Shown: one piece after another, positions 7,380-25,021 of the stretch | Numbering within the stretch: the stretch's first letter is position 1 | How the letters are laid out: every line of letters begins with the position of its first letter | Assembly (NCBI RefSeq): GCF_016652235.1 | Contig: NZ_JAEPKU010000035.1 | Location: 1-35,765 of the forward strand | Direction of reading: 5' to 3' | DNA length: 35,765 nucleotides | From: Dysgonomonas sp. Marseille-P4677 | GTDB lineage: Bacteria > Bacteroidota > Bacteroidia > Bacteroidales > Dysgonomonadaceae | The notes under the pieces: generated by a model | Seen by the model: the letters and a program-made list of their open reading frames with translations, nothing else | Told to the model about the DNA's origin: nothing | Databases searched by the model: none | Position numbers and translations under genes: made by a program

Positions 7380-7382
7380 TAT

Positions 7383-9563: not shown

Positions 9564-9571
9564 CTATCTGA
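9473..9571 (+). pseudogene. Integrase 5' fragment, 32 codons
   Basis: From ATG at 9473 the frame reads a close match to the start of the integrase at 2609 (SFNVLFFLKKTKLLKNGEAS, CMRI) and then hits TGA at 9569-9571 where homology ends. Only the beginning of the Arm-DNA-binding domain is left. It marks a second insertion or duplication scar immediately upstream of the Ter operon. Confidence 0.85.
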
Positions 9572-9692
9572 ATCATGATCAAAAAGTTAATCAGTGATTT
9601 TATTGATACAATAATATATTAATCACTTAAATACATAATTAATGTACTGGTATAAAATATATTAAGGATATACACGCTGATGTCTTGTAGTT

Positions 9693-9723
9693 GTTAATTA
9701 AAAAAATATATTTTTTAATTAAC
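9693..9723. repeat. 31-bp AT-rich palindrome upstream of the Ter promoter
   Basis: The arms GTTAATTAAAAAA and TTTTTTAATTAAC are perfect 13-bp inverted copies around ATATA. The centre is about 50 bases upstream of the -7 box at 9753. It could be an operator for a dimeric regulator, or a bidirectional terminator that isolates the operon; the U-rich 3' arm allows both. Confidence 0.5.
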
Positions 9724-9752
9724 TCAAATACATCATGCTAATGAATAATTTT

Positions 9753-9760
9753 TATCTTTG
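9753..9760 (+). promoter_or_regulatory. Bacteroidota-type -7 box of the Ter operon
   Basis: TATCTTTG matches TAnnTTTG exactly and lies 43 bases before the first TerD ATG, the natural start of the 13-gene operon. No exact TTTG is seen at the expected -33 position. Confidence 0.65.
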
Positions 9761-9803
9761 TAGAGACTGTTAATTCAAAATTATATAAAATTACACAAAC
9801 AAA

Positions 9804-10358
9804 ATGGCTATTAACTTACTCAAAGGGCAACGCATAGATGTTGGTTTATCGCAAGTGGGAATAGGATTAGGTTGGGATCCTAATGAAGGTACTGGTTTTG
9901 ATTTCGACTTAGATGCTTCAGCATTTATGTTGGGAGAAAACAAAAAACTTCCTAAAGAAGAATTCTTTGTATTTTATAACAATCCGAAATCACCGGATGG
10001 ATCTATAGAATCGTCCGGTGATGATTTAACTGGAGGAAATAGTGACGGGGACGATGAGACTCTAACCGTAGATCTGGGGAAAGTTGATTCTCGAATCCAA
10101 GAAATAGTTTTTACTGTCACCATACATGATGCAGAAGGACGCCGTCAAAATTTTGGACAAGTTCGTAATTCTTTTATTCGCATATATAATGCAAATACTA
10201 ACGAAGAGATTGCCAAATATGAATTAGAGGAAGATTTTTCAATTGAGACTGCTGTCGAATTTGGACGTCTATACAAACGAAATGGAGAATGGAAATTCGA
10301 GGCCATGGGAATAGGATACAAGGGAGGGTTACAATACTTTGTAGACAAATATTGTTGA
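9804..10358 (+). CDS. terD: TerD-family Ca2+-binding stress protein (first copy)
   Basis: The 184-residue protein covers one full TerD domain (PF02342), opening with INLLKGQRIDV. The acidic Ca2+-binding blocks are visible: DFDLDASAFML (about 32-42), then GDDLTGGNSDGDDE (about 73-86) and VDLGKV. The C-terminal NSFIRIYNANTNEE and YELEEDFSIETAVEFGRLYK blocks are typical. It is cytosolic, with no signal peptide. TerD proteins bind calcium and are thought to act as scaffolds in tellurite, phage and oxidative stress responses. It is the first gene of the operon, 32 bases before its paralogue, with which it shares most of its C-terminal half; TerE would be an equally good name. Confidence 0.93.
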   Translation: MAINLLKGQRIDVGLSQVGIGLGWDPNEGTGFDFDLDASAFMLGENKKLPKEEFFVFYNNPKSPDGSIESSGDDLTGGNSDGDDETLTVDLGKVDSRIQEIVFTVTIHDAEGRRQNFGQVRNSFIRIYNANTNEEIAKYELEEDFSIETAVEFGRLYKRNGEWKFEAMGIGYKGGLQYFVDKYC

Positions 10359-10390
10359 CAAATCAATTTTGAAAAAATAAAAATAATACC

Positions 10391-10945
10391 ATGGCAATTA
10401 ATTTAGAAAAAGGACAGCGTGTAAATGTTAATATTCCAAATTTTGTTGTAGGATTAGGATGGGATGCCAATCAATCATCTACAGGAACAGATTTTGATCT
10501 TGATGCTTCAGTTTTTATACTTGGAGAAAATAAAAAAATATTAGCCGACGAATATTTTGTTTTTTATAATAATCTACACTCTCCTGATGGAGCGATTAAG
10601 CATACAGGAGATAATCTGACAGGAGAAGGTGCCGGAGACGATGAACAAATAAAAGTTGATCTTTCTAAGATAAATCCATCCGCTACGGAGATTTGCATTG
10701 TTGTCACAATACACAATGCCGACGAACGCCGACAAAACTTTGGGCAAATACGCAATTCATTCATCCGTATATTTAATTCAGATACGAATGAAGAAATATT
10801 GAAATACGAATTAGAAGAAGATTTCTCAATAGAGACTGCTGTCGAATTTGGAAGAATATATAAACGCGGAACAGAATGGAAATTTGAGGCTGTCGGTGTG
10901 GGAGAACGCGGAGGCCTTGAAAACTATTTACAAAAATACTCATAA
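10391..10945 (+). CDS. terD: TerD-family Ca2+-binding stress protein (second copy)
   Basis: This 184-residue paralogue of the preceding gene begins INLEKGQRVNVNI. It has the same calcium blocks DFDLDASVFIL and GDNLTGEGAGDDE and a near-identical stretch RRQNFGQIRNSFIRI to EEDFSIETAVEFGRIYKR. The identical length and clustered conservation indicate tandem duplication followed by divergence of the N-terminal loop and the C-terminal tail. It probably partners the first copy in a TerD/TerE-like pair. A 128-base gap with a possible internal promoter separates it from the third copy. Confidence 0.93.
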   Translation: MAINLEKGQRVNVNIPNFVVGLGWDANQSSTGTDFDLDASVFILGENKKILADEYFVFYNNLHSPDGAIKHTGDNLTGEGAGDDEQIKVDLSKINPSATEICIVVTIHNADERRQNFGQIRNSFIRIFNSDTNEEILKYELEEDFSIETAVEFGRIYKRGTEWKFEAVGVGERGGLENYLQKYS

Positions 10946-11010
10946 ACCTTATGAACTAACGTATGTATACAAATAGAAAAGAGATTCTATTCAGAGCCAA
11001 TATATAACAA

Positions 11011-11018
11011 TAATTTTG
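11011..11018 (+). promoter_or_regulatory. Possible internal promoter of the Ter operon
   Basis: TAATTTTG fits TAnnTTTG and stands 55 bases before the third TerD-family gene in an unusually wide gap (128 bases). No -33 TTTG is present, so confidence is low. Confidence 0.35.
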
Positions 11019-11073
11019 GATGTGATAATTGATCTTTTTGTATACCAATTAAAAACTATAAAACATTAATACT

Positions 11074-11760
11074 ATGGCTATAAGATTAGAAAAAGGTCAA
11101 CGTATCAATCTGGAAAAAAGTACAGGCGGAAGCCTAACCAACTTCTGTGTAGGAGTAAATTGGGGTGCTATCGAAAAACAAGTGTTAAAATCCGGATTCC
11201 TAGGTTTTGGAGCTAAAGCAGTAACTGAAGTTGTAGATGTCGATTTGGATTTGAGTTGTGTGATGTTTGATGAAAACGGGAATCTTTGCGACCATCTTTA
11301 TTCTCCGCTTTACAGACAAGACCTGCTTGCTCAATTTGGCTTGCCTTTAGGAAAACTTTTGTCTTATAATGATGCTCTTAAGCATACAGGAGATGACTTA
11401 GAAGGAGACAAAGGCGGAGACGATGGCCTAGATAATGAGATTATAACTGTCGACCTAACCAAAGTATCTTCTAATGTAACAAGTATTTTTTTCTTTCTTA
11501 ATAATGTCGGTCAAGAAGATTTTGCTCAGATTCCATATGCAAAGATCAGAATGTATGAAGGTACGCCTACAAAAGTAGATAGTGTGTACGCTGAATATAA
11601 TGTTGTTGCCGAACCTCAATACAAAGGGAAAAAAGCCCTTGTGATGGGCCAGCTTTATAAGAAAGACAACACATGGAAATTCAATGCAGTCGGGGACGCT
11701 TATGAAGATTCTTTCCTAGGTCAAACAATACAGCGCATAAGACAAACCTACGTAAAATAA
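11074..11760 (+). CDS. TerD-family protein, longer TerX/TerZ-like variant
   Basis: The 228-residue protein starts IRLEKGQRINLEKS and has an extended N-terminal half: GVNWGAIEKQVLKSGFLGFG and VVDVDLDLSCVMFDENGN. The calcium loop is kept and enlarged (GDDLEGDKGGDDGLDNE, about 109-125), followed by ITVDL and the TerD C-terminal strands ending KFNAVGDAYED. The extra loop with CxxH-like residues around 67-71 is absent from the two shorter copies. This layout is that of TerX/TerZ-like members that accompany TerD in Ter gene clusters. It is cytosolic. A strong RNA hairpin follows its stop codon. Confidence 0.9.
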   Translation: MAIRLEKGQRINLEKSTGGSLTNFCVGVNWGAIEKQVLKSGFLGFGAKAVTEVVDVDLDLSCVMFDENGNLCDHLYSPLYRQDLLAQFGLPLGKLLSYNDALKHTGDDLEGDKGGDDGLDNEIITVDLTKVSSNVTSIFFFLNNVGQEDFAQIPYAKIRMYEGTPTKVDSVYAEYNVVAEPQYKGKKALVMGQLYKKDNTWKFNAVGDAYEDSFLGQTIQRIRQTYVK

Positions 11761-11790
11761 AAGTTGCCTTATTATTCCCTAAAAGAATAG

Positions 11791-11831
11791 AATCCTTTTT
11801 GCTTTTTTACATCAAAAGAGCAAAGAGGATT
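11791..11831 (+). other. 18-bp intercistronic RNA hairpin between the TerX-like gene and telA
   Basis: The arms at 11791-11808 and 11814-11831 pair over 18 consecutive positions, including two G-U wobble pairs, around the loop ACATC. No T run follows the 3' arm, so it does not look like a rho-independent terminator. A stem of this kind inside an operon usually marks RNA processing or stability control. Confidence 0.6.
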
Positions 11832-11888
11832 TGTGAATTACGTATATTCTCTATTATACACTAAAAAATCATTAAAATTATATTTGTT

Positions 11889-12986
11889 ATGGATACAAAT
11901 ACTTCTCCGAATGCATTACCGGTTCTTGCACAAAGAATGGATAAAGAAGGAAACATCGATCTCAATCAACTTCAACATCAAGAGTTGGAACGTATAACTC
12001 AATTAAACAGAAGTTTAGTTACAAACGATGTTAATTCTGTTCTAAATTATGGTGCAGATTTGCAAGCAACAATGGAAAAATATAGCAACGATTTCCTTCA
12101 GCAAACCCGAACCATGGATGCAGGAGAAGTTGGTACTCATATCAACGAATTGTTGTCGGAACTAAATTATATTGATGTTGACGAATTAAGTCCGAAGGGA
12201 TTTAAAGGATTTCTAATGAGAGTTCCTGGTTTAAAAAGTCTAATATTAGACATAAAAAAAATATTCCAGAAATATGATAAAATCATCGTTAATGTAGACA
12301 AGATTTCGAACAAAATTAAGGCTGGAAGAATCAATTCACTAAAAGATAATACAGCTCTGCAAACCATGTTTGATAATAATGTAGAATACATCAAACAAAT
12401 AGAAGAGTTGATAATTGCCGGAAAATATAAACTGGAAGAACTAAAAACTCAATTAGCTGAAATGGAGGTTAATTCAGCTCAATATCAAGATTACGAAATA
12501 GCTGATACACGCGAATTTGTAACTCGATTGGATAAAAGATTAGCCGATATGAAAATTATTCGTTATGTAATGATTCAATCTTTGGCTCAAATTCGTGTAG
12601 TGCAAAACAATAATGTTGCAATTGCTGACAAAGCACAATCAATTATATCAACAACTATCCCTGTATGGAAGAACCAGTTGACGATTGCAGTTGCTCTCTA
12701 TCGCCAGAAAGCAAACGTAGAAATGCAACGAAAGGTTTCTGAAACTACAAATACGATATTGGAGAAAAATGCAGAAATGCTACGCCAAAACAGCATAGAA
12801 GTGGCGAAGGAAAATGAGAACACAATCGTATCAATAGATACTTTGAAAAAAACAACCAACTCTTTGATATCGACTCTTAATGAGGTGAAACGCATACACG
12901 AAGAGGGTATGAAGAATAGAGAAGTTTTGGATAAAGAATTACAATCGCTTGAGGGTGAATTAAGAAAATCAGTAGGAGGAAACTAA
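11889..12986 (+). CDS. telA: TelA-like toxic anion resistance protein
   Basis: The 365-residue, nearly all-helical protein belongs to the TelA family (PF05816; KlaA/TelA and Bacillus YceH). It shows the family's opening region with asparagine/glutamine-rich helices, the central FLMRVPGLKSL...KKIFQKYDKI block (about 108-133) and the later KNQLTIAVALYRQ block (about 260-272). It has no signal peptide or membrane segments. TelA proteins are found with TerD proteins in Ter clusters and are implicated in tellurite and cell-envelope stress resistance by an unknown mechanism. The short six-base gap to the next gene and a good AGGAGGA upstream of that gene suggest coupled translation. Confidence 0.92.
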   Translation: MDTNTSPNALPVLAQRMDKEGNIDLNQLQHQELERITQLNRSLVTNDVNSVLNYGADLQATMEKYSNDFLQQTRTMDAGEVGTHINELLSELNYIDVDELSPKGFKGFLMRVPGLKSLILDIKKIFQKYDKIIVNVDKISNKIKAGRINSLKDNTALQTMFDNNVEYIKQIEELIIAGKYKLEELKTQLAEMEVNSAQYQDYEIADTREFVTRLDKRLADMKIIRYVMIQSLAQIRVVQNNNVAIADKAQSIISTTIPVWKNQLTIAVALYRQKANVEMQRKVSETTNTILEKNAEMLRQNSIEVAKENENTIVSIDTLKKTTNSLISTLNEVKRIHEEGMKNREVLDKELQSLEGELRKSVGGN

Positions 12987-12992
12987 TCGTCT

Positions 12993-13964
12993 GTGTTTGT
13001 GGAAGAACTGAGGCAAGAAATACTTGACAAGTCAAACGTAATTATTGATAAACTTTTATCACATGTTACCTTCTTTGAAGATTCGACATTGATGAAGATT
13101 TATCTACAAACTCAAGTTATCCATAAACTTTTCGAAGACAATACTGATATTGATATTAATAAGCTGGAACTCTTTCATTTACAATTTACGACTACGCTTC
13201 TTTCTTTGTTGGACTCTATAAAGCAAAAGAACGATAGAGCTGTAAAAATGTATGAAAATGAGATTCAGATCAATAATCAAATGATTGAGAAGCTGCGAAA
13301 TTCGATCCTTCAGGAAGGAGGATTCGATCTCGAAAAGCAAAAACAGACAATCAATATGTCTAAGTCTCTGAGAAGCTTATATGTTGCTTTTTACGAACGT
13401 TCTGACAAATATCCTTTTAAGGAAGATATTAGTTCTTTTTCGATTAATTTCTATAAAGATTATTTTTTTGAATCAACACACGATATTCTAGAGAGAATAA
13501 TAACGTACGACAAGAAAAATACATTTAGAAATCAATATGCTACAATCGACAAGCAACTCTTAATTGCATTAGGACAAGCTTATTTTAATATCGCATTTAT
13601 TGCCGGAGTTAATTTTTATCCGGTATTGATTGAATTATATAAGGTACAAGCGGAAGAAGAAATTTACTTTTTATATTGGCCGGCCAAAAGCCTTTTCCTA
13701 AGATGCGACATAGTATTATTTCCATTAAAAAAATGGGAGGCAGAAATGTCTAAACAATCGCAAATGATAAAACAATTGATAAAAAATAATCAAAAAGCAG
13801 AAACTAATATAAAAAACACAAATAAGTATATTTCATGCGAAGTATTGAACCTTTTGGAAGAAAATCACAAAACGATATCAGATCTCGATTTTCTCGCATC
13901 ATTAGAAGACATTAATATTCATGCCGAGATATTAAAATCTATGTTAAATACCAAAATGCTATAA
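12993..13964 (+). CDS. Uncharacterised helical protein of the Ter operon
   Basis: I do not recognise the family. The 323-residue protein starts at GTG (12993, or GTG 12999), six bases after telA, with AGGAGGA at 12974-12980. It is predicted helical and coiled-coil rich: heptad-like stretches near 85-110 and 250-275, rich in K, E, Q and N. It has no signal peptide, no membrane segment, and no zinc or P-loop motif. A more hydrophobic aromatic core lies at about 190-240 (YFNIAFIAGVNFYPVLIELY, then EEEIYFLYWPAKSLFL). It sits between telA and the VWA genes with eight bases to the latter, so it is an integral operon member. Its size and helical character suggest a scaffold that pairs with the similarly helical TelA; that is inference. 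Confidence 0.8.
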   Translation: MFVEELRQEILDKSNVIIDKLLSHVTFFEDSTLMKIYLQTQVIHKLFEDNTDIDINKLELFHLQFTTTLLSLLDSIKQKNDRAVKMYENEIQINNQMIEKLRNSILQEGGFDLEKQKQTINMSKSLRSLYVAFYERSDKYPFKEDISSFSINFYKDYFFESTHDILERIITYDKKNTFRNQYATIDKQLLIALGQAYFNIAFIAGVNFYPVLIELYKVQAEEEIYFLYWPAKSLFLRCDIVLFPLKKWEAEMSKQSQMIKQLIKNNQKAETNIKNTNKYISCEVLNLLEENHKTISDLDFLASLEDINIHAEILKSMLNTKML

Positions 13965-13972
13965 AAAATAAT

Positions 13973-14611
13973 ATGAGAAAACTACCAGTATATTTACTAT
14001 TAGATGTTTCGGCATCAATGTCGGGTGAGCCTATCGAAGCTGTTAAAAACGGTGTTCAGGTTTTAATTTCTAGTTTACGCCAAGACCCTTACGCCCTTGA
14101 AACTGCATATCTTAGTATTATCACATTTTCAGCTTCAGCGAAACAGATTGTTCCTCTCACCGAACTATCAATGTTTCAGATGCCTGAATTGCAAGCCTCT
14201 GGCACGACGTCTTTAGGAGGAGCACTTTCTCTATTGGCTAGTAAAGTAGAAACCGAGATTACAAAAACTACTCTCAAACAGAAAGGTGATTGGAAGCCCT
14301 TAGTTTTTATAATGACAGATGGAGCCCCTACAGACGATTGGAAAAAAGGATTAGAAGATTTCAAAAAACAAAAGTTTGGAGTTGTGGTTGCCTGTGCTGC
14401 CGGGCAACAGGCAAACACTAATGTTCTAAAGGAAATCACTGAGATTGTTGTACAACTGGATACAACTGACATAAGTTCGATCAAAGCATTTTTTAAATGG
14501 GTATCTGCATCGATAAGTATAGGTAGCCAAAAGATTGAATCGACGGGACAAGAGATTGGAGGAATGAGCGAACTTCCACCACCTCCACCCGAAGTCAACA
14601 TTGTTGTATAA
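13973..14611 (+). CDS. terY: TerY-like VWA-domain protein (first copy)
   Basis: The 212-residue protein is a single von Willebrand factor A domain with a MIDAS metal site: D11-x-S13-x-S15 in LLLDVSASMSGEP, a Thr-containing loop around SGTTSLGGAL, and FIMTDGAPTD. The MRKLPVYLLLD opening is characteristic of TerY. It ends with the proline-rich tail ELPPPPPEVNIVV. VWA/MIDAS domains bind metal-dependent protein ligands. In TerY-P systems they are thought to link TerD-type proteins with the kinase and phosphatase encoded next door. A duplicate follows 54 bases later. It is cytosolic. Confidence 0.9.
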   Translation: MRKLPVYLLLDVSASMSGEPIEAVKNGVQVLISSLRQDPYALETAYLSIITFSASAKQIVPLTELSMFQMPELQASGTTSLGGALSLLASKVETEITKTTLKQKGDWKPLVFIMTDGAPTDDWKKGLEDFKKQKFGVVVACAAGQQANTNVLKEITEIVVQLDTTDISSIKAFFKWVSASISIGSQKIESTGQEIGGMSELPPPPPEVNIVV

Positions 14612-14665
14612 AAGATTGTAAACAAGATTAAAAACTATTCTTGAATAAAAAGAAAGCACAAAAAA

Positions 14666-15301
14666 ATGAGACGTTTACCCGTTTATTTACTACTAGACAC
14701 TTCAGGTTCGATGAGAGGTGAACCAATCGAATCTGTAAAAGTAGGATTACAAGCTATGGTTTCAAGCTTGCGACAAGATCCTTTCGCTCTTGAATCCGTA
14801 TATATTAGTATCATCACATTCGATAGAGAGGTAAAACAAATACTCTCACTGACAGAATTAGAAGCCTTACAGCTACCGGATATAACTACCCCCGACTCAG
14901 GGCCAACACATCTAGGTGCTGCATTGGAGTTATTATGCCAAAAAGTAGATGCCGAGGTTCGAATAAGTACTTCCGACCAGAAAGGAGACTGGATGCCTCT
15001 TCTTTTTATAATGACAGACGGAAAACCATCTGATCTTCAGAAATATAATCAGATGATACCTGAGGTAAAAAAACGCAACTTTGGTAGTATTATAGCCTGT
15101 GCCGCTGGAGCCAAAGCAGATGTTGCTCCATTGAAACTATTAACAGATCAGGTGTATTCTCTTGATACAACAGATAGTACAACCTTCCGTCAGTTCTTTA
15201 AATGGGTGTCAGCATCTGTTAGTGTAGGAAATAAAAGTGTTGGAGTATCAGATGATATACAATTGCCTCCACCACCACCTGAGGTTAATACCGTAATCTG
15301 A
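14666..15301 (+). CDS. terY: TerY-like VWA-domain protein (second copy)
   Basis: This 211-residue tandem paralogue of the preceding gene keeps MIDAS residues D11-T-S13-G-S15 (LLLDTSGSMRGEP), SGPTHLGAAL and FIMTDGKPSD. It ends with almost the same tail, QLPPPPPEVNTVI. Conservation of the tail, against strong divergence in the segment just before it, suggests the proline run is functional. No zinc-binding region is present, unlike in the third copy. Confidence 0.9.
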   Translation: MRRLPVYLLLDTSGSMRGEPIESVKVGLQAMVSSLRQDPFALESVYISIITFDREVKQILSLTELEALQLPDITTPDSGPTHLGAALELLCQKVDAEVRISTSDQKGDWMPLLFIMTDGKPSDLQKYNQMIPEVKKRNFGSIIACAAGAKADVAPLKLLTDQVYSLDTTDSTTFRQFFKWVSASVSVGNKSVGVSDDIQLPPPPPEVNTVI

Positions 15302-15340
15302 AAACAAGAATATTTTTCACAATAACACATACAACAAACT

Positions 15341-16384
15341 ATGAGAAGATTGCCAATCTATTTTTTGATTGATGTTTCGGAATCAATGGTCGGAGAGCCG
15401 ATAGAACAAGTTCAAAATGGAATAGCTACCATTATAAAGGAACTACGGACAGATCCTTATGCACTCGAGACAGTATATATTTCGATAATAGTTTTTGCCG
15501 GCAAGGCTAAAGAAATTGTGCATCTAACAGAGTTATATAACTTTTATCCGCCCAAAATACCTATTGGAGGAGGAACATCTATCGGAACAGCGCTGAATTT
15601 TTTGATGGACAATCTTGACCGATCCATCAAGAAAACAACGCTGGATGAGAAAGGTGATTGGAAACCTATCATTTTTCTTTTTACTGACGGTAATCCTACA
15701 GACAGATATGAATATTCTTTCGATAGATGGAATAATAAATATCGTAATTCAACAAATCTGGTAGCCGTCACCTTAGGACAGGGCACAGATACTAATATAC
15801 TTAAAAGAATAACCGATAATGTTCTACAATTAAAAAACACAGATTCTGAATCATTTAAAGCTTTCTTCAAATGGATTACGGCATCAATAAAGACAAGTAG
15901 CATTAGTGTTAGTGAGATGCATACTGATGATTTGAAACTAGCTCCTATTGACGAAGATTTTCTTAATAAGATCGAGCAGGAAATGAATCAGCAGATCATT
16001 GATGATAACTATGCAGTAATGTTAGGTAAATGCCAGAATACTCATCGTCCGTATCTGATGAAATATAGGAGTAATAAAGGTTCCGGAAGCTATTCAGAAT
16101 ATAATATTAACAAAAGTTATAACTTAGTCGGAGCCTATCCTATAGATGAAACTTATTTCGAATTGTCAGATATTTACCAAACCGGACAAACTGTAAATAC
16201 AGCAGAACTAACCGGATTTCCGACTTGTCCTTGCTGTGGAAATCAATATGGTTTCTCTGTGTGTAAATGTAGAAATATCATGTGTGTAGGTAACGAAGAG
16301 ATGAGCAAATGCCCTTGGTGTAATAGCGAAGCTCAATTCGGTTTTGCAGAAGGTGATTCGGATATTGGAAGAACAAGGGGATAA
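15341..16384 (+). CDS. VWA protein with C-terminal TerY-C zinc ribbon
   Basis: The 347-residue protein starts with a VWA domain (MIDAS D11-x-S13-x-S15 in FLIDVSESMVGEP; GGTSIGTAL; LFTDGNPTD) of about 190 residues. It continues with a TerY-C domain (PF15616): a beta-rich part (about 205-295) and a cysteine cluster near the end (CPCCGNQYGFSVCKC, then CPWCNSE), enough for zinc-ribbon binding. It lacks the polyproline tail of the two shorter paralogues. The stop is only three bases before the phosphatase gene, so the two are probably translated together and act as the TerY-P unit with the kinase. Confidence 0.9.
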   Translation: MRRLPIYFLIDVSESMVGEPIEQVQNGIATIIKELRTDPYALETVYISIIVFAGKAKEIVHLTELYNFYPPKIPIGGGTSIGTALNFLMDNLDRSIKKTTLDEKGDWKPIIFLFTDGNPTDRYEYSFDRWNNKYRNSTNLVAVTLGQGTDTNILKRITDNVLQLKNTDSESFKAFFKWITASIKTSSISVSEMHTDDLKLAPIDEDFLNKIEQEMNQQIIDDNYAVMLGKCQNTHRPYLMKYRSNKGSGSYSEYNINKSYNLVGAYPIDETYFELSDIYQTGQTVNTAELTGFPTCPCCGNQYGFSVCKCRNIMCVGNEEMSKCPWCNSEAQFGFAEGDSDIGRTRG

Positions 16385-16387
16385 AAT

Positions 16388-17962
16388 ATGACAATAAAAG
16401 AATATTTAGAAAATATTGGTTTGCCATTTGAGAATGAAGAAACAGCTTTAGAATTCATCTCACACGATAAGATAAAAGAATTCATTTGTGAAAGATATTC
16501 CTATGAGAGAAAACTCGATGTTGATTTTCTACAAAAAGATGTGGTTACTATCATCAATGAGGAAATAATGATAGTAAACGAAAATTCGTTACAGCCATCA
16601 AATAATGATATTGATAGAAAAGAAGACTCCCTGATAACAACTGAAACTATGAAATATAGCGATTTAAATAATCCGATGGATGAACTTGCAAAGCAACACG
16701 CTAAAGACCAGGCTTTTGAAAATCATATACGAAGTCAAAGCTTTTGCTTGCAAAATGGGAAGGTAAATCAACCATATAGTTTCACTATCGACTCTGAATT
16801 TATTTCTAAAAATCAGATTGGAGATTTTTATTTTGATGGCTTGGATGAGATCGGCATAAGGCTAAATAAGGAGACTAATACGATAGAAGGCATTCCCACA
16901 ATTGCAGGCGACCATAAAATCACATGGTTTTTCAAGTCTAAAAACCCGAGTATAGGAAATCCTGTATTCAGTAAAGAACTAACTCTTGTGGTCAATCCCG
17001 ATCCTCGCTCTCTTTGGAATAATATTCCGACTCCGCCCGATACTCTATTTTATAAAGCAGATTCAGATAAAGCTTATCTAAAGGTTGAATCTCAGAGAGG
17101 CTTTTTCGGATTAGGTAAGAAGGAGCAAAAAGACATGGTTGCAGCAAGTCAAAGAGGTCGTGCCCACGCTCATGAAGGTAGAGCAAGGGATGATGATTTC
17201 AAATTCCTTTTTGATATCGAAAACGACTGGTATATGATAACAGTTGCTGACGGTGCAGGCTCTGCAAAGTATTCGCGGAGAGGTTCACAAATAGCTTGTA
17301 AAACGGTCATTGATATTTGCCAAGAAAAGCTACAGGCAGACTCAGACAAGCTTGGTCAATTAATTAAAAACTTTAATAAAAGCAGTTCAGATGAAAGTAG
17401 AAAAGCCGTAGGAGATCTTATTTATGAAATATTAGGGACTGCAATTTTCAAAGCCTACAAAAATATTGGAGAAGAGGCTGTTAAAACAGACGGAAATATA
17501 CGGGACTTTTCTACGACTTTATTACTCAGCATATGTAAGAAATATAATTTTGGTTGGTTTGTTGCCAGTTTCTGGATCGGCGATGGAGGAATCGGTATCT
17601 ATAATAAAGATACACAATTTCTCAAGGTTTTGGGAGAGCCTGATGGTGGAGAGTTTGCAGGCCAAACCCGATTTCTGACTATGTCTGAGATTATGCAACC
17701 TGCTGAAATATATCGTCGTCTCCGGTTCGAAATAGTAGATGATTTTACAGCATTAGTCTTAATGACTGACGGTATAACTGATCCGAAATTTGAAACTGAA
17801 TCTAATCTGATGCAAACAGAGAAATGGAATAATCTATGGGATGATTTGAATAGGGAAGTTGAGTTCAAAGATGATTTTGATTGTTCCGATCAATTATTAA
17901 AATGGTTAGATTTTTGGTCACCGGGCAATCACGACGATCGTACTATTGCAATAATATATTGA
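16388..17962 (+). CDS. PP2C-family protein phosphatase with Ig-like (He_PIG) module
   Basis: The 524-residue protein has three parts. Residues 1-110 are helical, acidic and unrecognised. Residues about 120-205 resemble a putative immunoglobulin-like He_PIG/cadherin-like module (VNQPYSFTID... LNKETNTIEGIPTIAGDHKI). Residues about 250-524 are a PP2C_2 (PF13672) phosphatase with metal-binding aspartates in VADGAGS (D288), WIGDGGIGIY (D399), LMTDGITDP (D461) and HDDRTIA (D517). It should remove phosphate from Ser/Thr, probably antagonising the kinase seven bases downstream. An Ig-like module is common on exported proteins but this one has no signal peptide, so it may be an intracellular docking domain. 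Confidence 0.9.
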   Translation: MTIKEYLENIGLPFENEETALEFISHDKIKEFICERYSYERKLDVDFLQKDVVTIINEEIMIVNENSLQPSNNDIDRKEDSLITTETMKYSDLNNPMDELAKQHAKDQAFENHIRSQSFCLQNGKVNQPYSFTIDSEFISKNQIGDFYFDGLDEIGIRLNKETNTIEGIPTIAGDHKITWFFKSKNPSIGNPVFSKELTLVVNPDPRSLWNNIPTPPDTLFYKADSDKAYLKVESQRGFFGLGKKEQKDMVAASQRGRAHAHEGRARDDDFKFLFDIENDWYMITVADGAGSAKYSRRGSQIACKTVIDICQEKLQADSDKLGQLIKNFNKSSSDESRKAVGDLIYEILGTAIFKAYKNIGEEAVKTDGNIRDFSTTLLLSICKKYNFGWFVASFWIGDGGIGIYNKDTQFLKVLGEPDGGEFAGQTRFLTMSEIMQPAEIYRRLRFEIVDDFTALVLMTDGITDPKFETESNLMQTEKWNNLWDDLNREVEFKDDFDCSDQLLKWLDFWSPGNHDDRTIAIIY

Positions 17963-17969
17963 TAAAAAG

Positions 17970-19466
17970 ATGGCAAATATAATAAAGATAAGAGCTACAG
18001 ATGGTTCCCCTGTTGAGTTCGTAGACGAGATCATAGGATCTGGAGCAATGAAAGATGTATATTTTAGCCCTGATAAGTCTTATGTGGTTGGCTTTTTCAG
18101 AGAAAAGCAGGATTACAACGCAAAAGACAGGTTAGAAAATATAACTGGTATCTACCGAGAACGTATCTTCAAACAAGAAGGAGGTGAATATTGGAAAGAT
18201 TCTTTCTGCTGGCCAACAAAGATGGTTGAATATAAAGGAAAGATTGGTGTTGTATGTCCAACCTATCAGAGTCAATATTTCTTTAAATATGGTTCGGTTA
18301 ATAATGATTTCTTGGGAATTAAAGGAAAAGAAAAAGAAGGGAAATGGTTTGCTTCAGCTAAAAACCAAAACAGGTTTTTAGCACCTGAAGAGAGAGGGGT
18401 CTGGTTTAAATATTTTCAAATCTGTATTAGAATAAGCCGTGCTGTAAAACGTTTGCATGCTGCAGGACTTGCCCATTCCGACTTATCATATAAGAATGTA
18501 TTGGTTGATCCTATATCTGGTCAAGCATCTATCATTGATATAGACGGCTTGGTCATACCCGGGAAATTTCCACCTGATGTACTCGGTACACCCGACTTTA
18601 TTGCACCGGAAGTTATTGCCACTAAACATTTGGATATAAAAGATCCGGAACGGAAGCTGCCAAGCATCAGAACAGACAGGCATGCTTTGGCTGTAATGAT
18701 ATATATGTATCTACTTTACAGACACCCTTTACGCGGAGGAAAAGTTAATGATTTGGATTCCTCCAAAGATGAGGAGCTATCAATGGGATCAAAAGCCTTA
18801 TTTATAGAACATCCGACAGATATATCTAATAGTGTAAAAAGTCACCAGCTTGAATCATCTCAATTGCCGCAAGCAGATCCTGTAAAGATACCATATACGG
18901 TTTGTGGTCCGTATTTGGTCGATTTATTTAAAAAGGCATTTATAGATGGATTACACAATCCCAGTTTACGCCCTACGGCTAATGAATGGGAAGATGGATT
19001 GTTGAAGACCATCGATTTGATGCAGCCTTGTCAAAATCCGAAATGCTGGTACAAGTGGTTTGTTTTTGACAATTCTACGAAGCCTAAATGTCCTTTTTGC
19101 GGAACAGAATATAAAGGCCAATTACCTGTCCTCAATTTATACTCTTCACGCAATGCTGAAAACTATACTTCTGACAATTATCGTTTAATGGTTTACAACA
19201 ATCAGTATCTCTACCAATGGCATGTAAACAGAAATTTATCCCCAAATGAAAGACTAACAGAAGAACAAAAAAAGCCTGTAGGTTACTTTGTTTTTCATCA
19301 GGGAAGGTGGTTGTTGGTAAATCAGCGTTTGACTGATCTGGAAGATAAAACAGATAGAAAAAAAATAGAAATAAACGAAGCTGTAGAGCTTACTGATAAC
19401 AAACAAATATTGCTATCAAAAGAAGAAGGAGGCCGTTTAGTAATTGTTCAATTAGTTTCAAATTGA
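17970..19466 (+). CDS. TerY-P-type Ser/Thr protein kinase with zinc ribbon
   Basis: The 498-residue protein has a eukaryotic-like kinase fold at about 15-350. It has glycine loop IIGSGAMKDVYF (21-32), catalytic loop H169-S-D171-L-S-Y-K-N176 and metal-binding IDIDGL (189-194), then TPDFIAPEV in place of an APE motif and RTDRHALAVMIY. A classical VAxK lysine is not obvious in VVGFFREK, so the ATP lysine may be K46 or moved. A zinc ribbon follows (CQNPKCWYKW... CPFCGTEY, about 353-380). The last 115 residues form a beta-rich domain I do not recognise. No membrane segment is present. It partners the upstream PP2C phosphatase, and its last codons overlap the HAD gene by four bases. Confidence 0.9.
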   Translation: MANIIKIRATDGSPVEFVDEIIGSGAMKDVYFSPDKSYVVGFFREKQDYNAKDRLENITGIYRERIFKQEGGEYWKDSFCWPTKMVEYKGKIGVVCPTYQSQYFFKYGSVNNDFLGIKGKEKEGKWFASAKNQNRFLAPEERGVWFKYFQICIRISRAVKRLHAAGLAHSDLSYKNVLVDPISGQASIIDIDGLVIPGKFPPDVLGTPDFIAPEVIATKHLDIKDPERKLPSIRTDRHALAVMIYMYLLYRHPLRGGKVNDLDSSKDEELSMGSKALFIEHPTDISNSVKSHQLESSQLPQADPVKIPYTVCGPYLVDLFKKAFIDGLHNPSLRPTANEWEDGLLKTIDLMQPCQNPKCWYKWFVFDNSTKPKCPFCGTEYKGQLPVLNLYSSRNAENYTSDNYRLMVYNNQYLYQWHVNRNLSPNERLTEEQKKPVGYFVFHQGRWLLVNQRLTDLEDKTDRKKIEINEAVELTDNKQILLSKEEGGRLVIVQLVSN

Positions 19467-20137
19467 TGATAACAAACATTTCTTTCGATTTATGGTTGAC
19501 GCTAATCAAATCGCATCCTGAGTTTAAACTAAAAAGGGCTGAAATGATAGCTGACAGCTACAACCCTAAAGGTTTGCGAGCAGAGCAAATCGACCTTGTC
19601 ATTCGAGATCTAGATAAGACATTCGATCTGCACAATGAAACTTATGGTGGTAAGATACCTGCATCAGAAATGTATCTGAAGATCTTAATCGAGATAGGCA
19701 ATTCTACTGAATCAATAAGTATTGAAGACGCAAATAAAGTTAGAGCATTCTCTGACGATTTATTTATCGAATATTGTCCTCAATTGTTAAATAGCAATGT
19801 CTTTTCTATTTTGGAAGAAATAAACAAGGAAGGGTTGATTATGAATCTTGCAAGCAATACGGGATATATTGAGGGAACAACCTTAAGGATTGCATTAGAC
19901 AAATTAAATATCCTAAATTTTTTCTCGTTTCATATTTTTTCCGACGAAATCAATGCTTCCAAACCTTCGCCTATATTTTTTCAGAAAGTATACGATAACA
20001 TAAATACTCCTAAAAAGAATGTTTTACATGTAGGAGATAATATAAAAACAGATTATAAAGGTGCTATTGACTTTGGATTCTCAGCACTTTTAATTAAGCC
20101 AAATTATACATTAAATGATATCAGAACCAGATTATAA
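19463..20137 (+). CDS. HAD-superfamily hydrolase of the Ter operon
   Basis: The 224-residue protein has the HAD motifs FDLWLTLI (nucleophile D9), L-A-S-N-T (motif II), S-K-P-S-P (motif III lysine) and HVGDNIKTDYKGA (motif IV acids). In motif I the usual second aspartate (DxDxT) is tryptophan (D-L-W-L-T). This occurs in some HAD subfamilies and may alter the acid/base step or substrate. Start and stop overlap both neighbours: four bases with the kinase and 23 with the phosphoribosyltransferase. Such HAD/PRTase pairs occur in Ter loci and are thought to make a nucleotide-like metabolite; the substrate is unknown. Confidence 0.88.
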   Translation: MMITNISFDLWLTLIKSHPEFKLKRAEMIADSYNPKGLRAEQIDLVIRDLDKTFDLHNETYGGKIPASEMYLKILIEIGNSTESISIEDANKVRAFSDDLFIEYCPQLLNSNVFSILEEINKEGLIMNLASNTGYIEGTTLRIALDKLNILNFFSFHIFSDEINASKPSPIFFQKVYDNINTPKKNVLHVGDNIKTDYKGAIDFGFSALLIKPNYTLNDIRTRL

Positions 20138-20951
20138 AGGAAATATAGTACACTTTTCAGGATTTAAAATTGATTCGGAAGCAGCCTTTGATTTTTCACC
20201 TAAAGAATATTCAAAATTCAAACACGGAGCAGAAAATATAGCCCGTAAGTTCGGATATGAACTTGCCGAAAGATTTATTAACGGAGTATTTAGGCATACA
20301 TACAATGGAGAACAGCTAATTGTTGTCCCCAGTGCCTACTCTCATATTCCTACTGCTTCATTTTATATGACAAAGTATTTTATAAACAGAATAAATTCAT
20401 ATCTCTTTGATAATGGTTATCCGGTGGTTCAAGTAACTAAGATTCACCGTACTGTGACCTATAGAGAAGACTATGCCGGAATGTCTGCTGAAAGTCGCTA
20501 TAAACTGATCAGTGGAGACAAATTCTATATTGACAAAGAATTTGTGAAAGGAAAGAAGATGATATTTATAGATGATATAAAAATAACAGGCACACACGAA
20601 CGGATTATTACTAAAATGCTAAGTGAGCATGGTATAACAGAAGACAGCTACATGATTTACTTTGCTGAATTGACGAATCATGCTATAAATCCAAATATAG
20701 AAAACTACTTGAATAACTATTTTGTAAAAGGAATAGATGATATAAGTAAAATTATTGATGAAGACGATTTTACATTTAACACTCGTGTTGTAAAGTATAT
20801 TTTGAATAGAAAACCTGAGGAATTTGATTCATTTATCAATAAACAGACAGATGAATTCAAACATTCATTATATCACAATGCTGTGGGAAATGAGTTTTAT
20901 AAATTCGAAACTTATTTAAGAAATCTGAACAAATTAAAATTAATTTTATAA
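20115..20951 (+). CDS. Phosphoribosyltransferase-like protein of the Ter operon
   Basis: The 278-residue protein has a type I PRTase fold with the PRPP-binding loop FIDDIKITGTH (151-161), preceded by the hydrophobic strand KKMI. An earlier strand-loop LIVVPSAYSHIPTAS (68-82) fits the PPi loop. The C-terminal 100 residues are helical and unrecognised. ATG at 20115 lies inside the HAD gene (23-base overlap), which implies tight co-translation. PRTases move a ribose-phosphate to a base or reverse the reaction. In Ter systems PRTase genes are predicted to belong to a nucleoside-like pathway; no purine-specific hood domain allows a name such as hpt or pyrE. The protein is probably cytosolic. Confidence 0.88.
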   Translation: MISEPDYKGNIVHFSGFKIDSEAAFDFSPKEYSKFKHGAENIARKFGYELAERFINGVFRHTYNGEQLIVVPSAYSHIPTASFYMTKYFINRINSYLFDNGYPVVQVTKIHRTVTYREDYAGMSAESRYKLISGDKFYIDKEFVKGKKMIFIDDIKITGTHERIITKMLSEHGITEDSYMIYFAELTNHAINPNIENYLNNYFVKGIDDISKIIDEDDFTFNTRVVKYILNRKPEEFDSFINKQTDEFKHSLYHNAVGNEFYKFETYLRNLNKLKLIL

Positions 20952-20958
20952 TAAACCA

Positions 20959-23886
20959 ATGGAACAAAAAAGACATTTAACCGGACTCAATAACCAGCAG
21001 GTATTGGAAAGTCGACAAAAGTACGGGGAGAATATTCTTACCCCACCTCCAAAAGAACCTCTATGGAAACTTTTCCTTGAGAAATTTGAAGATCCGATTA
21101 TACGTATCTTGCTTATTGCGGCCTTCTTGTCTTTAGGTATAGCTATTTTTGAACATCTATCGACAGGAGAAAAGCATTATGCAGAAACAATTGGCATTTT
21201 CTGTGCAATATTACTTGCAACGGGAGTTGCTTTCTGGTTTGAAGTGGATGCAAACAAGAAATTTGACATACTAAATCAAGTCAATGATGATACTCTTGTT
21301 AAGGTCATTCGTAATGGAAATGTAGTTGAAGTTCCAAAAAGACAGATTGTTGTTGGCGATGTTGTTCTTGTAGATACAGGAGATGAAATTCCTGCAGACG
21401 GAGAATTGATTGAAGCTATATCGTTGCAAATTGACGAATCAACGCTAACCGGCGAACCAATTATTGATAAAACAACAAATTCCGAAGATTTCGAAGCTGA
21501 TGCCACTTACCCATCAAACTGGGTTATGAGAGGAACGAAAGTTATGGATGGGCACGGTATATATATAGTCAAAACTGTAGGAGATGCCACTGAATATGGA
21601 AAGGTGGCCGAGAAGTCTACTGAAATGACAGGAGAGGAAACACCTCTTAATCAACAGTTAGACGGATTAGCAAAATTCATTGGAGTTGTAGGCCTAGCAT
21701 TGGCGGCACTTACTTTTATCGTTTTATTTGTAAAAGATATATTTGGAGGTACTATTTCATATACATGGGGACAGTTAGGATTGTTATCTGCTGTAATCAC
21801 TGGGGGATTGGTAGCCCTGATTAAAATTTGGTTGCCAATTGTTTATGATGGTTTTGAACTTGCCGGAAAGGAGAAGAAACTTCCTAAAAGTGTAGATGAA
21901 GGAGGTTGGTTAAGATGGATTGCTTTAGGCTTTCTTACAATTGTAGTAATTGCCGGCATTGGCTGGTTGTTTGGCGTAAGTCCAATCGATCCTGATTCTT
22001 GGGTAAGTATGGAGACAGCGCGCCATGTGTTACAATACTTTATGGTAGCAGTAACACTGATTGTAGTAGCAGTACCTGAGGGTTTGCCGATGAGCGTAAC
22101 ATTGAGCTTGGCCCTTAGTATGCGTCGTATGTTAAAAACGAATAACCTTGTCCGCAAGATGCATGCATGTGAAACAATGGGAGCTGTAACTGTCATTTGT
22201 ACCGACAAAACAGGTACATTAACAAAAAATCAGATGCAAGTTGCCGAAACGGCTTTTTCTGCACTTCCAAATCAGAAGCTATCTGATAATACTGCAAGCA
22301 AATTAATAATAGAAAATATTTCAATCAACTCTACGGCTCATCTAGATTTCTCCGATAGTTCTAAAGTAAATACATTAGGAAATCCTACGGAAGCAGCCCT
22401 TCTGCTATGGTTGAATGAAAAGGGGATTAAGTATATAGATGTCAGAGAAAACACAAAGATAGTAGACCAATTAACTTTCTCTACCGAACGTAAATATATG
22501 GCAACCCTTATCAAGAATGCTGATGACAATAAGTATATCTTGTATGTGAAAGGGGCTCCGGAAATAGTTATGAGTAAATGTACTACAGTACTTACCGAAA
22601 GTGGAGAGAAAAATATAACAGAAGAAAAAACAGGAATAGATACCTTATTGTTACAATATCAGAATCAAGCTATGAGGACTTTAGGGTTTGCATATAAAGT
22701 TTTGGATGATATTACTAAGGATGTTGAAATTAAAGATCTTGCAAAAGAAAACTTAATATTTTTAGGAGTTACTGCTATTTCAGACCCTGTTCGTGAGGAT
22801 GTTCCCGGAGCTGTTTCAGAATGTCTTGATGCAGGAATAGATGTGAAAATAGTAACAGGCGATACGCCGGGAACAGCCCGTGAAATTGGTCGTCAGATTG
22901 GTATATGGAAAGATACTGATACCGATAAAAATATTATTACAGGACCTAATTTCGAAGCTCTTTCAGACGAAGATGCTGAGAAAATAGTTTTGGATCTTAA
23001 AATAATGTGCCGTGCACGTCCTACTGACAAACAGCGCTTGGTACAATTGTTGCAAAAGAAAGATGCTATCGTTGCTGTGACCGGAGATGGAACAAACGAT
23101 GCTCCAGCGCTGAATCATGCTAACGTCGGACTATCTATGGGATCGGGTACTTCAGTAGCAAAAGAAGCGAGCGATATTACTCTACTTGACGATTCATTTA
23201 AGAGTATTGCAACTGCAGTGATGTGGGGACGTTCGGTGTATAAAAATATCCAACGTTTCATATTATTCCAATTGACAATAAATGTAGCCGCCTTAATTCT
23301 TGTGTTTTTAGGCTCTATATTTGGGACAGAGCTACCTCTTACAGTTACACAAATGTTATGGATCAATCTGATTATGGATACATTTGCTGCGGGGGCTTTA
23401 GCTTCATTGCCACCTGACCATAAAGTGATGCGTGAAAAACCAAGAAGAAATAAGGATTTTATAATCATTCCTCCAATGAGGCACCTCATTTTATCTGTAG
23501 GTATGATATTTGTCGTTATTCTTCTTGCTATGATGTACGTATTCTCCCAACCGGAGAAGTTGGATGCACTATTTAGCCATGTGAATGGAGACAAAGGCGC
23601 TTATTCTCTATCTTTCTTTTTTACATTCTTTGTCATATTACAATTCTGGAATATGTTTAATGCCAAAGCTTTCCAAACCGGAAAATCCGCATTCACAGAT
23701 ATGTCGAAAAGTAAAGGGTTTATTATGGTCGCCATTGTAATCCTTATCGGTCAAATCCTGATTGTTGAATTTGGTGGAGAAGTATTCCGTACAGTACCTC
23801 TTCAAATACGAGACTGGTTAATTATTATTATCTCAACTTCATTTGTATTGTGGATTGGAGAAATATCTAGATTAATTAAAAAATAA
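20959..23886 (+). CDS. PMCA-type Ca2+-translocating P-type ATPase
   Basis: The 975-residue membrane pump has N-terminal cation ATPase and actuator domains (LTGEP at 163-167, where TGES is usual). Transmembrane segment 4 carries PEGLP (373-377), the phosphorylation site is D416-KTGTLT, and the nucleotide domain contains YVKGAPEIV and the hinge GDGTNDAPAL. M6 reads WINLIMDTFAAGALA, with the Asn and Asp of the Ca2+ site. It is longer than simple bacterial Ca2+ ATPases because of an insertion between M3 and M4 (about 285-340) with an extra hydrophobic segment. It should export Ca2+ from the cytosol. It is the last gene of the Ter operon, 7 bases after the PRTase, and the only integral membrane protein there. 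TerD proteins bind Ca2+, which links the two. Confidence 0.93.
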   Translation: MEQKRHLTGLNNQQVLESRQKYGENILTPPPKEPLWKLFLEKFEDPIIRILLIAAFLSLGIAIFEHLSTGEKHYAETIGIFCAILLATGVAFWFEVDANKKFDILNQVNDDTLVKVIRNGNVVEVPKRQIVVGDVVLVDTGDEIPADGELIEAISLQIDESTLTGEPIIDKTTNSEDFEADATYPSNWVMRGTKVMDGHGIYIVKTVGDATEYGKVAEKSTEMTGEETPLNQQLDGLAKFIGVVGLALAALTFIVLFVKDIFGGTISYTWGQLGLLSAVITGGLVALIKIWLPIVYDGFELAGKEKKLPKSVDEGGWLRWIALGFLTIVVIAGIGWLFGVSPIDPDSWVSMETARHVLQYFMVAVTLIVVAVPEGLPMSVTLSLALSMRRMLKTNNLVRKMHACETMGAVTVICTDKTGTLTKNQMQVAETAFSALPNQKLSDNTASKLIIENISINSTAHLDFSDSSKVNTLGNPTEAALLLWLNEKGIKYIDVRENTKIVDQLTFSTERKYMATLIKNADDNKYILYVKGAPEIVMSKCTTVLTESGEKNITEEKTGIDTLLLQYQNQAMRTLGFAYKVLDDITKDVEIKDLAKENLIFLGVTAISDPVREDVPGAVSECLDAGIDVKIVTGDTPGTAREIGRQIGIWKDTDTDKNIITGPNFEALSDEDAEKIVLDLKIMCRARPTDKQRLVQLLQKKDAIVAVTGDGTNDAPALNHANVGLSMGSGTSVAKEASDITLLDDSFKSIATAVMWGRSVYKNIQRFILFQLTINVAALILVFLGSIFGTELPLTVTQMLWINLIMDTFAAGALASLPPDHKVMREKPRRNKDFIIIPPMRHLILSVGMIFVVILLAMMYVFSQPEKLDALFSHVNGDKGAYSLSFFFTFFVILQFWNMFNAKAFQTGKSAFTDMSKSKGFIMVAIVILIGQILIVEFGGEVFRTVPLQIRDWLIIIISTSFVLWIGEISRLIKK

Positions 23887-23906: not shown

Positions 23907-23946
23907 AAAATAAGGATACTAGTTATAGTATCCTTATTTTGTTTTT
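23907..23946. terminator. Strong bidirectional terminator after the Ter operon
   Basis: The arms AAAATAAGGATACTA (23907-23921) and TAGTATCCTTATTTT (23926-23940) are perfect 15-bp inverted copies with the loop GTTA, followed by GTTTTT. The minus-strand reading also ends in T-rich sequence, so it can close the convergent lpxC transcript too. Confidence 0.85.
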
Positions 23947-23995: not shown

Positions 23996-25021
23996 TCAAA
24001 GTCTATTCCAACAGAAAATATCATCTCGAATTGCAGAGAGTTCAAATGGCATATCTTCTGTTTTTATCGATTTCTTTTCTTTACTTTCTATTTCGGTTAT
24101 ATAATATTCCCTTATGGCCATGGCAAATTGATTATTGATCAAATGACCAGGACGAATTGCGGTCACAGATCCTTTTATAAATGCACCCACAAGTGCAAGA
24201 TCGCCAATTACATCCAGCAATTTATGTCGAGCAAGCTCATTGGAGTATGCTAATGGTTTATTCATAATATAGCCAAGCTTCCTTGCATCACGATGTTTGA
24301 CACCTATTAAGTCGGCAATACGGTCTAGTTCGGATTGAGGTAAAATCGTATCATAGATTATAATCGAATTATCTAAATTTCCTCCTTTGATGAGATTTTC
24401 CCGGATCATCGGTTCAATTTCTTTTATAAAAGCAAAAGTTCGTGCCGAAGCTATTTCTTTTGTAAAATCAGATAGATTACCTAAAGATGCACTTTGACTT
24501 TTTAGCAAAGGAGAATCGAATGTAATTTTTGTTTTGATATCAAAAGAATTTCCAGGCATCAATACCATAGATGAATCATTCTCTTTATCTACTATCCGAA
24601 TTCGCTTTCTTTTGAGTGATACATACTTTCTAGGTGCATTTTGTTCTTCTGTACCAATTTCCTTGATTTTGCTCAAATATAGAATAGAGCTGCCATCCAA
24701 TGCTGGAAATTCAGGCCCATTTATTTCAATCAGACAATTGTCTATTTCACTCGCATATAAAGCTGCAAGGGCATGCTCTACGCTACCTGCTGATGCGCCA
24801 TTTTCATATAATGTTGTACCTCTTTGACTATCAATCACATTCTCGGCTAATGCATTTATGATTGGTTGCCCCATAATATCCGTACGTTTTATCTTATAGC
24901 CATAATTGTCGGGCGCAGGATTGAATGATATTGTAGTTTTTAGTCCTGAGTGTAATCCTTTTCCTTCAAGTGAAAAGCTGTTCTTTAATGTTCTTTGCTT
25001 TTTCATATCTTTATTAAACAT
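23996..25021 (-). CDS. lpxC: Stand-alone LpxC (UDP-3-O-acyl-GlcNAc deacetylase)
   Basis: The product removes the N-acetyl group of UDP-3-O-acyl-GlcNAc, the committed step of lipid A synthesis, as a Zn2+ cytosolic enzyme. Core motifs are intact: SVEHALAAL (Glu and His of the zinc/catalytic pair), ARTFAF, ARHKLLDVIGDLAL (His and Asp) and RPGHLINN. In Bacteroidota LpxC is normally fused in front of FabZ (about 460 residues). Here the FabZ half is absent and the C-terminus is a unique tail of some 35 residues ending FCWNRL. ATG at 25021 is preferred over GTG at 25036; ATG at 25006 (MKKQRTL) aligns best with family starts. It is probably a second, specialised copy. It is convergent with the Ca2+ pump gene. 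Confidence 0.88.
   Translation of the reverse strand: MFNKDMKKQRTLKNSFSLEGKGLHSGLKTTISFNPAPDNYGYKIKRTDIMGQPIINALAENVIDSQRGTTLYENGASAGSVEHALAALYASEIDNCLIEINGPEFPALDGSSILYLSKIKEIGTEEQNAPRKYVSLKRKRIRIVDKENDSSMVLMPGNSFDIKTKITFDSPLLKSQSASLGNLSDFTKEIASARTFAFIKEIEPMIRENLIKGGNLDNSIIIYDTILPQSELDRIADLIGVKHRDARKLGYIMNKPLAYSNELARHKLLDVIGDLALVGAFIKGSVTAIRPGHLINNQFAMAIREYYITEIESKEKKSIKTEDMPFELSAIRDDIFCWNRL

Follow-up and report, generated by a model that had tools for sequence, protein, structure and literature searches.

The stretch of DNA analyzed here (the window) is the entire 35,765-nt contig C209 from the genome of Dysgonomonas sp. Marseille-P4677, an assembly of 4.73 Mb in 278 contigs that is 99.95% complete. 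The host is placed in the Dysgonomonas group of the Bacteroidales. The window carries a Ter operon of 13 open reading frames (ORFs), all on the plus strand between positions 9804 and 23886, whose coordinates were each rechecked and whose intergenic distances range from −23 to +128 nt. The encoded proteins are, in order, three TerD proteins, TelA, an orphan protein that we call HEL, two VWA proteins, TerY, a PP2C phosphatase, a protein kinase, a HAD protein, the phosphoribosyltransferase PRTase_3, and a PMCA-type Ca2+ ATPase.

Anantharaman et al. reportedly described, in 2012, TerY-P Ter systems with TerD, TelA, TerY/VWA, PP2C, kinase, HAD, PRTase, and TerC components. The window has all these domains except TerC. 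Specifically, it encodes TerD proteins, a VWA domain joined to TerY_C, a PP2C phosphatase and a kinase beside TerY, and a HAD-PRTase pair. A TerC gene within the operon, which is frequent but not universal for this type, is replaced by the Ca2+ ATPase gene, there is no TerB, and the order runs from TerD through kinase, HAD, and PRTase to the pump. The operon is a variant of the known TerY-P kind that is set apart by the Ca2+ pump in place of TerC. A preliminary description had called the region an unbroken TerY-P unit of 13 genes without TerC or TerB, whose pump is the sole integral membrane protein. The ORFs, their common strand, their tight spacing, and their domain matches agree with the first of these claims, and no TerC or TerB domain was found in the operon proteins with Pfam at an E value of 0.001. 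The last claim holds as a prediction, in that a crude count based on hydropathy assigns 10 membrane segments to the ATPase and none to the 12 other proteins. TerD genes in the host genome were found solely within this operon.

The final gene (20959..23886, plus strand) encodes a predicted PMCA-type (P2B) Ca2+ transporter. Its product matches TIGR01517 with a score of 683 bits (cut-off 507) and carries the Pfam domains E1-E2_ATPase and Cation_ATPase N, middle, and C. The motifs PEGLP, DKTGT, NVAA, and NLIMD occur at residues 373, 416, 775, and 803, respectively. The residues expected for a single Ca2+ site are present, namely E374 in M4, N775 with A778 in M5 (where a second-site Glu is missing), and N803 and D807 in M6, positions that we take to be ion ligands from what is known of SERCA and PMCA proteins. 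The key PMCA residues are invariant across seven aligned Ter-linked pumps, and the best PDB sequence matches are the plasma-membrane-type Ca2+ ATPases 8qmp, 9gsd, and 6a69. The window pump resembles these P2B ATPases in its full-length match and in its catalytic and ion-site motifs, and it differs from them in sitting within a Ter operon, with an unlinked second copy in the same genome.

The pump and TerC in related operons

A PRTase_3 model built from nine aligned proteins was used to scan GTDB contigs, which yielded 45 loci; 66 loci were mapped in total. At 14 of the 45 loci, a pump gene lies 3′ of the PRTase gene on the same strand, with gaps of −31 to 415 nt in 13 cases and a gap of 1572 nt, containing an acyltransferase gene, in the remaining one. 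Nine of these 14 pump genes overlap the PRTase gene or start less than 70 nt from it. TerC is part of the operon at another 14 loci, comprising 11 where it lies within the mapped locus and three (L049, L055, and L061) where the PF03741 coordinates on contigs of matching length place it just beyond the mapped end. Pump and TerC were not found together in any operon, either among the 45 PRTase loci or among the 66 mapped loci. Thus, the pump takes the slot of TerC in this TerY-P operon, as had been suggested. The possibility that its linkage is an accident of one genome was rejected on the basis of the 14 pump-type loci. The other 17 PRTase loci show neither gene, and seven of these (L032, L035, L045, L047, L056, L060, and L063) end within 1 kb.

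Pump and TerC are each mostly the last recognized gene of their operon, exceptions for TerC being L124, where it is first, and L066, where it is internal. At L064, HAD and PRTase_3 form a single fused protein of 527 amino acids (positions 9224-10807), a fusion that suggests that the two proteins probably act jointly, and TerC lies directly 3′ of this gene in the position that the pump occupies in the window. Nine of the 14 pump-type genomes have a TerC gene, always off the operon contig, and none was found in the other five. Conversely, no pump relative was detected at E ≤ 1e-40 in the TerC-type genomes G512-G516 (loci L049, L050, L053, L055, and L061), and the pump relatives of three further TerC-type genomes (G511, G517, and G518) are just 31-32% identical.

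A survey of the class provides a second view of the same slot. Among 395 genomes of the class, 17 encode TerD, and the 16 genomes other than the host contribute 20 TerD loci. TerC lies within the Ter run at 10 of these loci, a PMCA gene at none, and a gene of the Na+/Ca2+-exchanger family at one (L109). There, a putative exchanger gene (11080-12225), assigned by its profile match to Na_Ca_ex (PF01699, 131 bits), heads a TerD-VWA-PP2C-kinase operon 36 nt upstream of terD. This locus belongs to another family of the class, and its genome has two TerC genes, both on other contigs and neither linked to the operon. None of TerC, PMCA, and exchanger is found at the remaining nine loci. At eight of these, no kinase or PRTase is seen either; L120, the last of the nine, has a complete operon with a gene for a PrsW-like protein at its end.

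Of the 101 genomes of the family, 11 encode TerD, seven with the operon and four without it. In two of the latter, the TerD gene directly precedes a same-strand relative of P-type Ca2+ ATPase genes. The gap is 147 nt in G089, whose ATPase is 75% identical to the window pump, and 18 nt in G082, whose ATPase is 42% identical. Pairs of TerD and Ca2+ ATPase genes in genomes without the PRTase_3 operon span L072:5021-8782 and L094:3851-7180. No pump beside TerD was seen in the other two genomes, G020 and G068, and the TerD match of G068 is under the family cut-off. TerC is located on other contigs in G020, G082, and G089. The pump gene of G020 is elsewhere in the genome and adjoins a gene for a UPF0114 protein. 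In another species of the host genus, a pump gene adjoins genes for a UPF0114 membrane protein, CW_7, and a Pfam-less protein of 193 amino acids (L087:2017-7333).

The expectations of the preliminary description were borne out in part. TerD loci with a P2B ATPase and without terC exist among the PRTase loci (14 of 45), and none is among the 20 class loci. Linkage of the ATPase gene to Ter genes in relatives is seen at the same 14 loci and is missing in five of the six further operons of the Dysgonomonas group. The absence of terC nearby holds for the operon itself, the one TerC gene of the host being on another contig (C120:531-1133).

The kinase and ATPase sequences permit a view of how these arrangements arose. 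A kinase tree of 24 rows, made with a quick method, splits the five TerC-type rows from the other 19 with a Shimodaira-Hasegawa-like approximate likelihood ratio test (SH-aLRT) value of 100, and the other side of this split holds both pump-type and pump-less Bacteroidales operons. In a tree of 44 ATPases that includes 12 operon-linked pumps, the linked pumps fall into a group with the window and Dysgonomonas sp. 520, a group of seven Prolixibacteraceae-like sequences, and a group of three Tannerella-like sequences. A single clade of Ter-linked pumps is not supported, its rejection by the approximately unbiased (AU) test being borderline (p 0.0499). Another rejected proposal equates the operon pump with the genome's ordinary PMCA copy; the latter, on contig C225, is 68% identical and belongs to another well-supported clade. 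The C225 copy clusters with those of other genomes of the genus, three of which (L079, L084, and L086) share its neighbor gene. PRTase_3 is found in only one of 25 genomes of the host genus, that of the host itself, and none of the genes that flank the operon in the window has a counterpart at E ≤ 1e-20 among the Dysgonomonas-group loci L016-L021 and L133-L136. These two findings suggest that the operon is probably mobile.

A predicted calcium-extrusion arm and its alternatives

We consider it somewhat probable, from gene content and arrangement, that the window encodes a TerY-P variant in which TerD and a switch made up of kinase and phosphatase control a predicted Ca2+-extrusion arm in the membrane. 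The PMCA-type pump would replace TerC as the membrane component of a Ter stress-response operon. TerD proteins would bind cytosolic Ca2+ and thereby report or buffer it, while the state of TerY and the VWA proteins would depend on the kinase and the PP2C phosphatase. The complex would in turn switch the membrane component, here the pump, whose ATP-driven activity would export Ca2+. Stresses that let Ca2+ enter and so raise its cytosolic level, such as membrane damage, toxic anions, or perhaps attack by phages or pore-forming agents, would trigger extrusion. TelA with HEL, and HAD with PRTase, may be optional modules of the same response. At L097, PP2C and kinase genes are followed by two small genes and then by a pump gene with no HAD-PRTase pair, which suggests that the metabolite branch is dispensable there. 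One of these small genes, between kinase and pump, is weakly TerB-like, its score of 17.6 bits lying under the cut-off of 24.4. The nucleotide-like metabolite that the preliminary description put forward as a possible second output gains no support from this locus or from the HAD protein, whose motif I lacks the second Asp, and its suggestion of envelope or phage stress gains none from the PADLOC scan of 10 of the 13 operon proteins.

Calcium is favored as the transported ion because a gene of the Na+/Ca2+-exchanger family is present in another TerY-P operon and because TerD-ATPase pairs exist. The same two observations speak for the earlier suggestion that the operon controls cytosolic Ca2+; the linkage that is not universal and the presence of TerC and a second PMCA elsewhere in the genome speak against it. 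TerD is described as binding Ca2+, and a Streptomyces terD gene as being involved in Ca2+ homeostasis, in work cited in the portion of PMC8123226 that we consulted. The accessible part of PMC10550928 ties TerC and UPF0016 proteins to the transport of Mn and Ca. Ter systems are proposed to join the biosynthesis of a signal to its sensing by TerB and TerD and to a membrane response by TerC, and their parts are given as PRTase, HAD, TerB, TerD, TerC, TelA, and the VWA protein TerF, according to the sections of PMC7824862 available to us.

The roles of Ter proteins have been puzzling for decades, and the ion moved by the TerC proteins of Ter operons is unsettled. A natural swap of TerC for a transporter of well-known specificity offers Ca2+ as a candidate, and Ter systems may work by moving calcium. 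In a tentative extension of this idea, Ter systems in general would be devices for regulated Ca2+ extrusion. TerC (itself a Ca2+ exporter), the P2B ATPase, and the Na+/Ca2+ exchanger would be unrelated transporters in one slot, TerD would sense Ca2+ or carry it to whichever transporter is present, and the TerD-ATPase pairs would be the minimal form.

A number of observations weigh against a Ca2+-extrusion arm as an integral part of the Ter operon. Ten of the 45 PRTase loci (L025-L029, L037, L054, L057, L062, and L067) have neither pump nor TerC despite more than 1 kb of room, L067 showing a weak TerC match on the opposite strand. At L062, an amino-acid permease gene follows HAD-PRTase, so a transporter behind this pair need not mean Ca2+. 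Because the TerC-type kinases belong to a single clade, few evolutionary events underlie the exclusivity of pump and TerC, which may reflect one swap and its descendants. P2B pumps may carry Mn2+ as well as Ca2+. The host retains TerC elsewhere in its genome and has the second PMCA at C225, and two genomes of its genus (G022 and G025) hold unlinked pumps of the window's own clade; these unlinked pumps also weaken the rejection of the proposal that the operon pump is an ordinary copy. No pump is encoded in five of the six other operons of the Dysgonomonas group; the only close PMCA gene shares the operon contig in four of these genomes, at a distance of 31-67 kb, and is on another contig in the fifth. 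The five pump-less operons (g3, Dysgonomonas) run on into a 93-amino acid ORF and other genes, and in one of them (G030) the kinase part has been inverted away; the operon of Dysgonomonas sp. 520 (L024) is of the pump type.

These absences, together with the three places of linked pumps in the ATPase tree and the close pumps with no Ter gene within three genes in 11 of 12 other inspected class genomes, are what would be expected if a mobile Ca2+ ATPase gene had repeatedly landed behind Ter genes and served general Ca2+ homeostasis with no link to Ter function. We regard mere proximity as quite unlikely. The overlapping or closely spaced PRTase and pump genes at most pump-type loci argue against it, as do the complete separation of pump from TerC in the mapped loci, the independent TerD-ATPase pairs, and the appearance of the same linkage in loci that carry the names Dysgonomonas, Tannerella, and Mariniphaga/Prolixibacteraceae. 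A different role for a functional pump would be metal supply, in which TerD would deliver Ca2+ (or Mn2+) and the pump would load it into the periplasm to serve secreted or surface-exposed proteins during stress. The pump is in the position of TerC and may share its role, and TerC family proteins of Bacillus are reported to metalate exoenzymes during export (PMC10550928, in the part consulted). However, Pfam recognizes no secretion gene among the operon proteins, and the exchanger-family alternative at L109 fits homeostasis equally. We consider metal supply unlikely, if less so than mere proximity.

The least probable of the alternatives in our judgment is defense against phages, with infection sensed by the kinase and phosphatase and the pump either perturbing Ca2+ needed by the phage or triggering dormancy. 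Ter systems have been discussed as phage barriers (PMC7824862, within the sections available), and the patchy distribution of PRTase_3 in the genus and the integrase fragments near the operon are compatible with such a role. However, no PADLOC defense system was matched by the 10 of 13 operon proteins scanned, which gave only weak, generic kinase and PRTase matches, and Pfam recognizes no nuclease or other killing effector in the operon. A scan of IMG/VR with the pump returned two loci whose maps show no TerD match, one of them with a weakly TerB-like neighbor, and a phage-record search returned 127 records, all at less than 60% identity. Jug huge gut phages, with Bacteroides and Phocaeicola as predicted hosts, resemble the window in that a single genome encodes both a set of TerD proteins and a Ca2+ P-type ATPase. 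They differ in that the ATPase gene is cotranscribed with a small gene of no assigned function and is not placed beside terD in the text (PMC12363816, in the portion consulted). No word starting with "TerY" occurs in the main text of that article.

Among bacterial systems, the TerY operons of Flavobacterium, Pedobacter, and other Bacteroidota (L048, L053, L065, L068, and L114) have kinase, PP2C, VWA, HAD, and PRTase proteins of the same families as the window, according to the models used here. In operons of the Flavobacterium/Pedobacter type, however, TerC follows the kinase gene by 6-55 nt and HAD-PRTase is near the 5′ end. In those parts of the literature on Ter systems, calcium, and P-type ATPases that were covered, which do not include the 2012 Ter survey, there was no report of a Ca2+ pump in place of TerC; an earlier description is possible.

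Other operon proteins

The first two TerD proteins (9804..10358 and 10391..10945) each match PF02342 with 242 bits, and the second is close to solved TerD proteins (PDB 3ibz, E 7e-57; 2kxt, E 8e-56). The third (11074..11760) is divergent, with 95 bits for PF02342 and an E value of 3e-9 for 3ibz. TelA (11889..12986; PF05816, 313 bits) is followed by HEL (12993..13964), a protein of long helices and a small beta region. No Pfam family was found for HEL at E 0.001, and 12 relatives gave only scattered weak matches. Its predicted structure has a mean predicted local distance difference test (pLDDT) score of 82 and a predicted template modeling (pTM) score of 0.53, and no fold match was found at E ≤ 0.001. 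Across the 66 mapped loci, HEL is present at all 24 loci that have TelA, adjoins it at 22, and never occurs apart from it. HEL is an apparent partner of TelA.

Two VWA proteins with DxSxS motifs (13973..14611, PF00092, 51 bits; 14666..15301, 47 bits) precede TerY (15341..16384), which combines a VWA domain (PF00092, 52 bits) with the TerY_C metal-binding domain (PF15616, 153 bits). Next to it are genes for the PP2C-type phosphatase (16388..17962; PF13672, PP2C_2, 132 bits) and the protein kinase (17970..19466; PF00069, Pkinase, 39.5 bits), whose catalytic loop reads HSDLSYKN. The HAD protein (19463..20137; PF13419, 43 bits) has the motif I sequence FDLWLTL. HAD motif I usually has two Asp residues; here the nucleophile is retained and Trp is at the position of the second Asp, which makes an ordinary HAD phosphatase step less certain. 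This feature is widespread among relatives, 46 of 51 having FDLW(L/M)TL and 50 of 51 having Trp for the second Asp, the motif not being found in the remaining one. The PRTase_3 protein (20115..20951; PF15610, 263 bits) is ComF-like and has a PRPP-loop-like sequence, DDIKITGTHE. The 12 genes described here are on the plus strand.

Operon borders and flanking genes

A TATCTTTG box at 9753..9760 (plus strand) is a candidate −7 element of the operon promoter, found by a search with the pattern TAnnTTTG, which we take to be the Bacteroidota −7 consensus. A terminator-like hairpin with a 15-pair stem and a T tail lies at 23907..23940 (plus strand), 20 nt past the ATPase stop codon. These two features are candidate borders of the operon. 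The two plus-strand matches of this kind that lie inside the operon have shorter stems, of 7 and 5 pairs. Overall, terminator-like sites are not enriched relative to shuffled sequences (10 versus a mean of 8.1, standard deviation 3.1), and a sigma-70 promoter scan likewise did no better than shuffles (57 versus a mean of 60.1). Scans of the window returned no Rfam matches and no tRNA genes.

A tyrosine integrase gene is represented by two copies of its 5′ part, 86-88% identical, at 2382-2698 and 9285-9562. The first leads into a piece of 228 amino acids (2519-3205) with no long open plus-strand frame continuing to 3805, and the second is decayed and immediately upstream of the first terD gene. 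They suggest a past mobile element on the 5′ side of the operon. Between the copies, two adjoining His_kinase-type sensor genes and a LytTR response regulator gene (6339-9160) are on the same strand as the operon and 643 nt upstream of it. They are unmatched in the Dysgonomonas-group operon loci, and a pair 33-35% identical is present in the TerC-type locus L124 (5352-6649). On the 3′ side, an LpxC-family gene (23996-25036; PF03331, 257 bits) is convergent with the operon, and a relative that is 39% identical lies ~8 kb from the PRTase gene in L065.

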